Shown piece by piece: positions 4,409 through 20,195 of a stretch of DNA of 64,000 bases. The stretch spans positions 1 to 64,000 of the forward strand of contig NZ_JBAGBW010000006.1 in assembly GCF_039822205.1 (NCBI RefSeq). The letters run 5' to 3'. Positions within the stretch are counted from its first letter, which is position 1, and every line of letters begins with the position of its first letter. Made by a program: the position numbers and the translations under genes. The notes below the pieces were generated by a model. The model did no database searches and was not told where the DNA came from. It was given only the letters and a program-made list of their open reading frames with translations. This DNA comes from Thermodesulfobium sp. 4217-1 (GTDB taxonomy: Bacteria; Thermodesulfobiota; Thermodesulfobiia; Thermodesulfobiales; Thermodesulfobiaceae).

Positions 4409-5099
4409 CTTCTTTTCTCAAATCTCTTTTGATTTCTTCAGAAGATAAATCCTTTAGCTTGTCGCATGCATCTTTATTCCCAAATTTACAGGCTTTTTTA
4501 AGGTATTGCAGTGCCTTAGGGAGATTTTTGTTCTCAAAGTATATGTTTCCCAGATTAAAATATGCCCTTGCAAGGTCCTGACCCTTTCTCACAAGCATTA
4601 GATTTTTAAAAATCTCGCTGTTTCCAGCCGACTCAGCTGATACAGCCTTCACGCTTTGGGCCTCCAGCCATTTCAGAATAAAGAAGCTGATTATTAAGGA
4701 GACCAGGATCATAGAAGGAGAGTCTATCATATTGAATATCGTGTGCCAGGGAAGTTTATTGGAAAATATGTCATATATGTCGAATAGCAAAAGAATTATT
4801 GTAAAGAGTATAAAGAAGTAGTGCAAAATCTTTAAAAATCTGTGATCCTTTTTATTTATTATAAAGCCCCTTGTTTCTTTTTCAAAAAAAATGATACGAA
4901 TTCTCTCAAGAATATATATGGTTATACATATCGCTAAGATTATCAAGCTTAATGGCGGTAGCTGATGTAGAAAATATCTAAACCTGTGAAAAGAAGAGTT
5001 GTCTATGACCCTATCGAGCCTGCTGAACAAAAGAAAAAATGATACTCCCCAGAGCGCGCAGATAACGTTATAAATCAACAAAAAAATTCTAATATTCAC
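4401..5099 (-). CDS. Four-helix membrane protein with a TPR/Sel1-like tail
   Basis: A 232-residue protein with four hydrophobic segments (about residues 5-25, 45-68, 90-110 and 128-146). A cytoplasmic tail carries a tetratricopeptide or Sel1-like unit, ARAYFNLGNIYFENKNLPKA at about 178-197, continuing into a second helical repeat. It is first in an operon with the MNT/HEPN pair and overlaps the nucleotidyltransferase gene by 8 bp. That linkage could mean a membrane sensor or partner for the toxin pair, or only shared transcription. I do not recognise a named family. Confidence 0.65.
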   Translation of the reverse strand: MNIRIFLLIYNVICALWGVSFFLLFSRLDRVIDNSSFHRFRYFLHQLPPLSLIILAICITIYILERIRIIFFEKETRGFIINKKDHRFLKILHYFFILFTIILLLFDIYDIFSNKLPWHTIFNMIDSPSMILVSLIISFFILKWLEAQSVKAVSAESAGNSEIFKNLMLVRKGQDLARAYFNLGNIYFENKNLPKALQYLKKACKFGNKDACDKLKDLSSEEIKRDLRKEDA

Positions 5100-19017: not shown

Positions 19018-19167
19018 TTTTTTCGCCTCCAAGAATTATTAGCGTCAACTATGTCTAAAAAACCGTTACAAAAGCATTTATAGCTTTTTTTATTTTATTT
19101 GCTGTAAAAATCAAGATGTGATATAATTGCAACAATATTTAAAAACTGCAAGTATATGGCTATTGGT

Positions 19168-19449
19168 TTAGAACATATCCCTTATTTCATCTAAGCTTTT
19201 AGATTTTATAACAGCTTTATGCATCTCTCTTAGCTTTTCTCTGTCTTTCGTTTTTTTCACCAAAAGTTTTATATCTCTTGGGACTTTATTAAATTTGGTT
19301 TCAATGGCATCTAAAAGTAAATCCTGGGCATCAATAATCATACCCTCTATCTTACCTTTCTCCATGCCTTTCTCCATGCCTTTCTCCATGCCCTTTTTAA
19401 TACCTTCTTCTCTTCCCTTTTCTATCCACTTCTCAATTACAGGTGCCAT
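19168..19449 (-). CDS. Candidate internal in-frame product of the Rpn gene (RpnS-like)
   Basis: An in-frame ATG at 19449 is preceded at 7-bp spacing by AGGAGGTGAT (19462-19453), which is fully complementary to the 3' end of 16S rRNA. It would give a 93-residue protein, starting MAPVIEKW, that contains only the linker repeats and helical C-terminus. In enteric Rpn genes such short products (RpnS) have been shown to block the nuclease. Here the product is inferred, but the SD is better than that of most genes in the window. Confidence 0.6.
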   Translation of the reverse strand: MAPVIEKWIEKGREEGIKKGMEKGMEKGMEKGKIEGMIIDAQDLLLDAIETKFNKVPRDIKLLVKKTKDREKLREMHKAVIKSKSLDEIRDMF

Positions 19450-20160
19450 CTTATCACCTCCTACAGTAGAGTCTAATATAGCTTTCATTTCCTCTTCTTT
19501 CAAATCATTTACATTTGCAACATAAATAAAGTATATCAAAAACTCGTCTAAATCTAAATCTTTTACGATATACAATATCTCAGAATATTTCTCTAAGTCT
19601 TTACCGATATAGGAGTATTTAAACAGCAATAGTGCAGTTAAAAGATATATATTATTTATGCTAAGGCGAAATTTTTCTTCTTCAATCTTATTTGTATCTA
19701 TCAGGATATACTTAAAAGCAGGCAAATAATCTTTATAGATATGCTTTTCTTCAAATAGATCTGAGAAATCTATCGGTTTATCCCAATTCGTTTTTCCATG
19801 ATAGAAAACTACTGGAATAATTGGCTCTAATGGTCTTTTGTTTTTTATATCCTCTTCCCATATTGCAAGCATATATGAGAGTATCTGGATATTACTAAAG
19901 CTTCCTGTCTCTGATTTGTGCTCCAGTAGATAATACACCTGGACTGAACTGGTCTTTGTTTGAAATCTAAAAGCTATGTCTAAATTAAATCTCTTATACT
20001 TCTTTGAAATCTTTTCTGTGTTTATAGGTTTTATTGTATTAATGTCCAGTTGTTCTAAAATCTCTTTTGGCAAAGAGAATTCTACAAAGCTCTTTGCATT
20101 CTCAATATTTGAGGTTATCTGTTTAAAGAACTTATCGTGTATTTGATGTATGTCGTCCAT
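19168..20160 (-). CDS. Rpn-family PD-(D/E)XK nuclease (full-length form)
   Basis: A protein of about 330 residues of the Rpn / COG5464 family (recombination-promoting nuclease, also annotated as transposase). The opening IHDKFFKQI is typical. The catalytic Asp in LDIAF (about 65) and the ExK of LLEHKSE (about 82-87) form the nuclease core. The C-terminus carries a KGMEKGMEKGMEKG linker and a helical tail. The ATG at 20160 lies 7 bases after a -10 with no SD, so the transcript appears leaderless; an upstream TTG would lie in the promoter. An internal start with a perfect SD occurs at 19449. Confidence 0.85.
   Translation of the reverse strand: MDDIHQIHDKFFKQITSNIENAKSFVEFSLPKEILEQLDINTIKPINTEKISKKYKRFNLDIAFRFQTKTSSVQVYYLLEHKSETGSFSNIQILSYMLAIWEEDIKNKRPLEPIIPVVFYHGKTNWDKPIDFSDLFEEKHIYKDYLPAFKYILIDTNKIEEEKFRLSINNIYLLTALLLFKYSYIGKDLEKYSEILYIVKDLDLDEFLIYFIYVANVNDLKEEEMKAILDSTVGGDKMAPVIEKWIEKGREEGIKKGMEKGMEKGMEKGKIEGMIIDAQDLLLDAIETKFNKVPRDIKLLVKKTKDREKLREMHKAVIKSKSLDEIRDMF
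19355..19390 (-). repeat. Perfect 3 x 12-bp tandem repeat inside the Rpn gene
   Basis: Three identical copies of CCTTTCTCCATG (plus-strand reading) encode repeated MEKG. Copy-number change keeps the frame. Each unit also carries GGAG-N6-ATG on the coding strand, which could serve as an extra internal start site. Confidence 0.9.
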
Positions 20161-20166
20161 AAATTG

Positions 20167-20195
20167 ATTTAAACACAAGAATAAAAAGATGTCAA
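20167..20195 (-). promoter_or_regulatory. Promoter for a leaderless Rpn mRNA
   Basis: A perfect TTGACA (20195-20190), 17-bp spacer and TTAAAT (20172-20167) on the minus strand. Six bases later comes the ATG, so transcription should start on or next to the initiation codon. Confidence 0.65.

Follow-up and report, generated by a model that had tools for sequence, protein, structure and literature searches.

A predicted gene-within-gene Rpn toxin-antitoxin combining a leaderless-type long start with a strong Shine-Dalgarno site at an internal start

How might a nuclease and the protein predicted to restrain it be started separately within a single reading frame? This question is raised by an rpn gene on the minus strand of the window, that is, the whole 64 000-nucleotide stretch of DNA that was analysed. 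According to Zhong et al. (2023, PMC10327210), the rpn genes of E. coli and one rpn gene of C. difficile give a short C-terminal protein (RpnS) from an internal start, and the short protein of E. coli RpnA binds and inhibits the toxic long form (RpnL), which agrees with what the preliminary description of this locus had stated for Rpn nucleases of enteric bacteria. Stand-alone RpnS proteins are annotated as DUF4351, and what determines the RpnL:RpnS ratio and what frees RpnL were named there as open questions (Zhong et al. 2023, PMC10327210).

The features of the gene are listed in Table 1. The long frame, which closes with TAA, was matched by PF04754 (YhgA-like, Rpn) with E=3.8e-35 (121.8 bits against a gathering cut-off of 21), and TIGR01784 gave 39.7 bits, under its own cut-off of 52.1. 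The PD-(D/E)XK residues D61, E80 and K82 are intact. In the AlphaFold2 model of the long form (pLDDT 86), a nuclease-like core is combined with C-terminal helices, including a long helix at residues 235-290 that begins near the internal start; PDB matches to this model were weak restriction-enzyme matches with E=0.1-1 (EcoO109I, E=0.12; BamHI, E=0.69). The window gene is a member of the Rpn nuclease family.

Table 1 Positions of the features of the rpn gene in the window (A1, alignment of 44 relatives; SD, Shine-Dalgarno)
Feature	Position	Strand	Remarks
-35 box TTGACA	20190..20195	-	Unchanged across 7 rpn copies from 4 species
-10 box TTAAAT	20167..20172	-	17-nt spacer; 6 nt 5′ of ATG; spacing kept despite divergent spacer sequence
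Long-form ATG, predicted leaderless start at or next to the first base	20158..20160	-	Weak SD energy, unstructured 5′ end
rpn long form (RpnL-type), PD-(D/E)XK nuclease	19168..20160	-	330 aa + stop; PF04754 match
Catalytic Asp D61	19978..19980	-	Nearly invariant in A1
Catalytic E-x-K (E80, K82)	19915..19923	-	E80 invariant in A1; aligned with E. coli EHQ
rpn short form (RpnS-type antitoxin, predicted)	19168..19449	-	93 aa + stop; start aligned with E. coli RpnA/B/C/E
Internal SD AGGAGGTGAT	19453..19462	-	Energy, conservation, pattern counts
Four-residue repeats (GMEK-type) in long helix	19342..19413	-	Copies differ by multiples of four residues
Hairpin AGGUG/CACCU around internal AUG	19441..19459	-	Predicted folding
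Possible internal -35 TTGAAA	19498..19503	-	Not conserved in most other copies
Possible internal -10 TATATT	19475..19480	-	Conserved in all aligned copies; opens 21-codon unchanged block

For comparison within the genus, four genomes (G000-G003) from four species were used. The rpn gene is multicopy in this genus and falls into group A, whose members resemble the window gene, and group B, with an identity of about 40%; many of the copies in the draft genomes lie at contig ends, as repeats do. At the long start of the window gene, the six bases CAATTT stand between TTAAAT and ATG, and the A of the ATG is the seventh base past the -10 box. Since this box ends 6 nt before the ATG, the usual transcription start point would coincide with the ATG itself. 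The Shine-Dalgarno energy of the long start was -1.7 kcal/mol, the third weakest of the 51 gene starts in the window, and the 5′ end of the long-form mRNA was predicted to be unstructured (-1.1 kcal/mol). An in-frame stop is present just 5′ of the -35 box, and protein conservation starts at the ATG. The preliminary description had placed the long frame 7 bases after TTGACA-17-TTAAAT and without an SD, which was borne out to the base. A TTG at 20178 was also considered as an upstream long start and rejected, because the G000:C44 copy does not have it in frame and the conserved protein sequence starts only with the ATG.

Across the four genomes of the genus, the pattern TTGACA-N16-18-TTWAATCA-N3-5-ATG matched 7 sites, each of them the start of a group A rpn (7/7), and its reversed-pattern control gave no match. 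These seven copies sit in unrelated upstream surroundings. All of them keep the 17-nt spacing and the 6-7-nt gap to the ATG, whereas the spacer and the sequence further upstream differ, such spacer divergence being seen in the copies of G001, G003 and G000:C44. Group A homology extends from about 5 nt before the -35 box to the stop codon, so that the promoter forms the outer edge of the copied unit and there is no common leader; among the group A copies compared, no shared leader was found upstream of the -35 box, and a reading based on a conserved leader was dropped for lack of common sequence beyond that point. The conserved layout is what a promoter selected for a leaderless start would look like, and the placement of the -35 and -10 boxes in the seven copies leads us to predict a leaderless long-form mRNA. 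A general leaderless pattern was only modestly in excess in the genus (26 matches versus 15 in the control), and some of its matches resemble tRNA-type promoters or fall within genes.

It might be argued that the internal start and the antitoxin are real and that the long form is not leaderless, being made from upstream, context-specific transcripts or by weak SD-less translation, with the spacing of the boxes incidental. Leaders with SD sites are indeed found in other Rpn groups and in E. coli rpnA, rpnB and rpnE (in group B, the long form starts with a TTG behind GAGGG and a promoter-like box lies further upstream), leaderless arrangements look uncommon in the genus, and the AT-rich region upstream of the long start offers further -10-like boxes. 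However, the whole layout of boxes, spacing and gap is kept in every copy with a 5′ end, and homology stops immediately upstream of it. We therefore regard this alternative as rather unlikely and retain a leaderless long start as the preferred reading.

Of the 10 group A copies extending as far as the internal signal (AGGAGGTGATAAGATG / ACTGTAGGAGGTGATAAGATGGCACCTG), 7, representing all four species, have it unchanged, and every copy with an open frame keeps it without a base change. Alterations were confined to L082, a fragment lacking its N-terminus, and to two decayed copies, the internal ATG being changed to ATT in L088 and one base of the SD in L087. A comparison of the internal ATG and SD among relatives had been suggested in the preliminary description; having been carried out, it detected loss only in truncated or decayed copies and leaves the reading standing. 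Among stretches with many copies, synonymous difference was lowest at the internal start (0.02), as against 0.1-0.3 over most of the gene, and a few stretches with fewer copies also show zero synonymous difference. The longest run of identical codons among G000, G001 and G002 comprises 21 codons (ILDSTVGGDKMAPVIEKWIEK) and spans the internal SD (permutation p=0.02), a block that is not significant in a two-species comparison alone (p=0.145).

Several other observations were made on the copies of the genus and their surroundings. An N-truncated group A copy in G001 (L078, G001:C1:1135644-1136507) keeps the internal SD, the ATG and the repeats, and might act by itself as a short form or antitoxin gene. 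In the complete genome of G003, all group A copies (L080, L088 and L074) are broken by stops or truncation. At the locus that corresponds to the window, G002 carries a group B rpn (L104, G002:C27:1-2500, positions 2-622) adjoining the same dehydrogenase gene, and G001 and G003 have different genes and no rpn; a clean empty site that would demonstrate insertion was not found. The locus looks like a site where rpn genes come and go. Just downstream of rpn, an interspersed repeat of about 60 nt (window 19059-19117, minus strand) occurs at five places in the source genome and five in G002, and was not found in G001 or G003.

A further question is whether the gene belongs to a decaying or selfish duplicated cassette without a working toxin-antitoxin function, in which conservation would reflect recent copying. 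The numerous copies in the genus that are truncated or interrupted by stops, most notably those of G003, and the cassette-like borders at the -35 box and the stop codon would suit such an origin. On the other hand, the window copy and one G001 copy are open, have intact catalytic residues and share 86% protein identity across species, the signals are kept while the spacer diverges, and it is in decayed copies that the internal signal is lost. A functionless cassette thus seems improbable to us, and a working gene with two starts is the interpretation followed below.

At the internal site, AGGAGGTGAT is followed by AAG and the ATG (19449-19447), with a distance of 7 nt between AGGAGG and ATG. 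All in-frame internal ATGs of the 51 long frames in the window were scored for pairing with the 16S tail. The duplex of the internal SD (-16.4 kcal/mol) ranked first among 325 such ATGs, for which the next value was -12.1 and the mean -2.1; the best of the 51 gene starts reached -16.5, and only one start matches the internal SD in strength. For the pattern AGGAGGTGAT-N1-6-ATG, a search of the genus (four genomes) yielded 12 matches, 7 of these at rpn internal starts, and its reversed-pattern control gave none. In the whole 2.0-Mb source genome there were four occurrences, of which two were rpn internal starts and the others lay at a normal gene start (38658) and before a 34-codon frame. Group B has an internal AGGAGG at the same place as group A, followed by a TTG start. 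In addition, M238 of the window protein falls in the same alignment column as the proven M244 of RpnA and the internal starts of RpnB, RpnC and RpnE, and when the same SD scan was applied as a control to four E. coli K-12 genes (rpnA, rpnB, rpnC and rpnE), the internal start came top in each.

The short form alone was modelled as an all-helical protein (pLDDT 80) with a long first helix and three more, and its repeats have Gly at four-residue intervals beginning with residue 12. Their position accords with the 8-20 residues past the internal start expected for the RpnL-RpnS type, and variation in repeat number by steps of four is a trait described by Zhong et al. No match with a useful score was found when this model was compared with solved structures by Foldseek, the RpnA-S crystal structure included, and the short form did not match that crystal structure by sequence or fold. 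The short form of group B gave E=5e-5 with DUF4351, just under the cut-off. The internal start at 19449 with an SD at 7-bp spacing, and a 93-residue product made up of the repeats and a helical tail without nuclease residues, had both been put forward in the preliminary description; coordinates and lengths proved correct, and D61, E80 and K82 are absent from the short form. The statement that the internal start is 'perfectly served' could be kept in part: the SD is strong and stands at 7 nt, but accessibility was overstated because a 5-bp hairpin pairs part of the SD and holds the internal AUG in its loop (about -5.5 kcal/mol at 37 °C and -2.6 kcal/mol at 55 °C). This AGGUG/CACCU hairpin is conserved along with the 21-codon block.

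A promoter-like arrangement, TTGAAA-17-TATATT, was also noticed within the gene, its -10 box ending 12 nt before the short-form SD. Although it is the best such match in the region, promoter-like matches there were in no excess (5 versus 6.0 expected from shuffles). In E. coli, internal transcription starts give short rpn mRNAs. The candidate internal promoter could also set the ratio of long to short form.

To place the gene within the family, 17 dereplicated Rpn genes from several phyla were analyzed, the short start being taken as the best at 0.66-0.86 of the gene. Median SD energies were -10.3 for the short start, -6.8 for the long start and -4.4 for a mid-gene control (n=17: short versus control, p=0.003; short versus long, Wilcoxon p=0.018). 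In distant Rpn, an SD-preceded start is again found about 0.70-0.80 of the way along the gene, with different residues (EEVxxM, KExLM and GGExM). A rule that the short-form SD is always stronger than that of the long form was rejected, as this was the case in only 11 of 17 genes (sign test p=0.33) and the short region has more candidate codons. The window group is the extreme of the short-over-long tendency, and no other gene of this sample has an SD-less long start together with a -10 box ending 6 nt from the ATG and a -35 box at 17 nt. A leaderless long form as a family-wide rule was likewise discarded, being contradicted by group B and by paralogues of another phylum, where, in a large set (search over 85 genomes), TTGATT...TATACT promoters precede the ATG by tens of bases. 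In a Sedimentibacter rpn (L011, about 4590-4626), a perfect 18-bp inverted repeat, TTATTCTACTTATGAGTT-TGC-AACTCATAAGTAGAATAA, stands directly before the ATG. That the internal SD is a by-product of VGGDKM in AT-rich codon usage, with only the full-length protein made, is very improbable: as the protein sequence VGG favours such a site, 4-14% of synonymous shuffles of the genus copies did match its strength, but the internal start shares its column with proven starts, group B has its AGGAGG and TTG start at the same place, and SD-led starts recur in distant Rpn above the level of mid-gene sites (p=0.003, n=17).

Taken together, we consider it likely that the window gene is an Rpn gene-within-gene toxin-antitoxin with a leaderless RpnL-type long form and an SD-led RpnS-type short form. 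In this scheme, the promoter would be set so that transcription begins at the A of the first AUG, giving a leaderless mRNA for the 330-residue nuclease, and the RpnL-type long form would be initiated without an SD. The same mRNA, and possibly also a second transcript from the in-gene promoter, would carry a near-perfect SD before the internal AUG, from which the 93-residue RpnS-type C-terminal protein would be made. RpnS may then pair with RpnL via the repeat-bearing helix and keep the nuclease inactive until its release, phage infection being one possible occasion. For this organism, use of both starts, complex formation, inhibition and a role in defence are predicted. The division between a leaderless long form and a strong-SD short form, as first suggested in the preliminary description, is supported by the conserved signals, with initiation itself predicted; the additional claim that such a split is undescribed also held, in that no account of it inside one gene was found in the open-licence literature. 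That the split would keep the antitoxin in excess, as the preliminary description further proposed, is a conjecture to be qualified by the hairpin at the SD and by the possible internal promoter. Since the toxin would be initiated in a leaderless, 70S-type manner and the antitoxin by SD-guided 30S initiation, their ratio might report the state of the translation machinery, with impairment of 30S initiation by a stress or a phage shifting it toward the nuclease, an idea that we offer as speculative and rather doubtful. If the prediction is right, the two starts differ in initiation mechanism throughout the rpn group of the window gene, conserved across four species, which makes the question of the RpnL:RpnS ratio testable, and the predicted intragenic antitoxin is extended to another phylum (probably Thermodesulfobiota).

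Comparison with known systems indicates which parts of this arrangement are inherited. Like E. coli RpnA-E and RpnP2, the window gene encodes a PD-(D/E)XK nuclease and has, in the same frame, an internal start for a C-terminal protein, modelled here as helical; four-residue repeats, variable in number, lie in the same helix. Because the internal ATG aligns exactly with the starts of E. coli RpnA, RpnB, RpnC and RpnE, the 93-residue product is predicted to be an RpnS-type antitoxin, and the same-column starts, the repeats and the DUF4351 match of group B just under the cut-off mark the internal antitoxin start as an inherited family trait that was already known; antitoxin action is proven for E. 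coli RpnS and predicted for the window short form. What appears unusual, and new here, is the pairing of initiation signals, a leaderless-type toxin start with a strong-SD antitoxin start. In E. coli rpnA, rpnB and rpnE, the SD energies of the long starts (-8.2 to -10.6) are similar to those of the internal starts (-8.5 to -8.7), in contrast with -1.7 and -16.4 in the window gene, whereas rpnC (L207, 2969-3871) is uneven (-3.5 for the long and -11.4 for the internal start) and lacks a -10-like box at 6 nt from the ATG. As the long starts of group B and of E. coli rpnA, rpnB and rpnE are SD-led, the split in the window gene would be a lineage-specific variant. Like the window gene, the C. difficile rpn has an internal start with its own ribosome site for a short form, whose production was abolished by mutation in tests in E. 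coli; the available text of that work does not call its long-form start leaderless, unlike the prediction made here. Leaderless toxin-antitoxin transcripts are known from M. tuberculosis, where 32 of the 37 pairs whose primary start was mapped are expressed in this way (Cortes et al. 2013, PMC3898074). There the leaderless transcript belongs to a two-gene pair, whereas in the window gene one frame is shared and only the toxin start is predicted to be leaderless.
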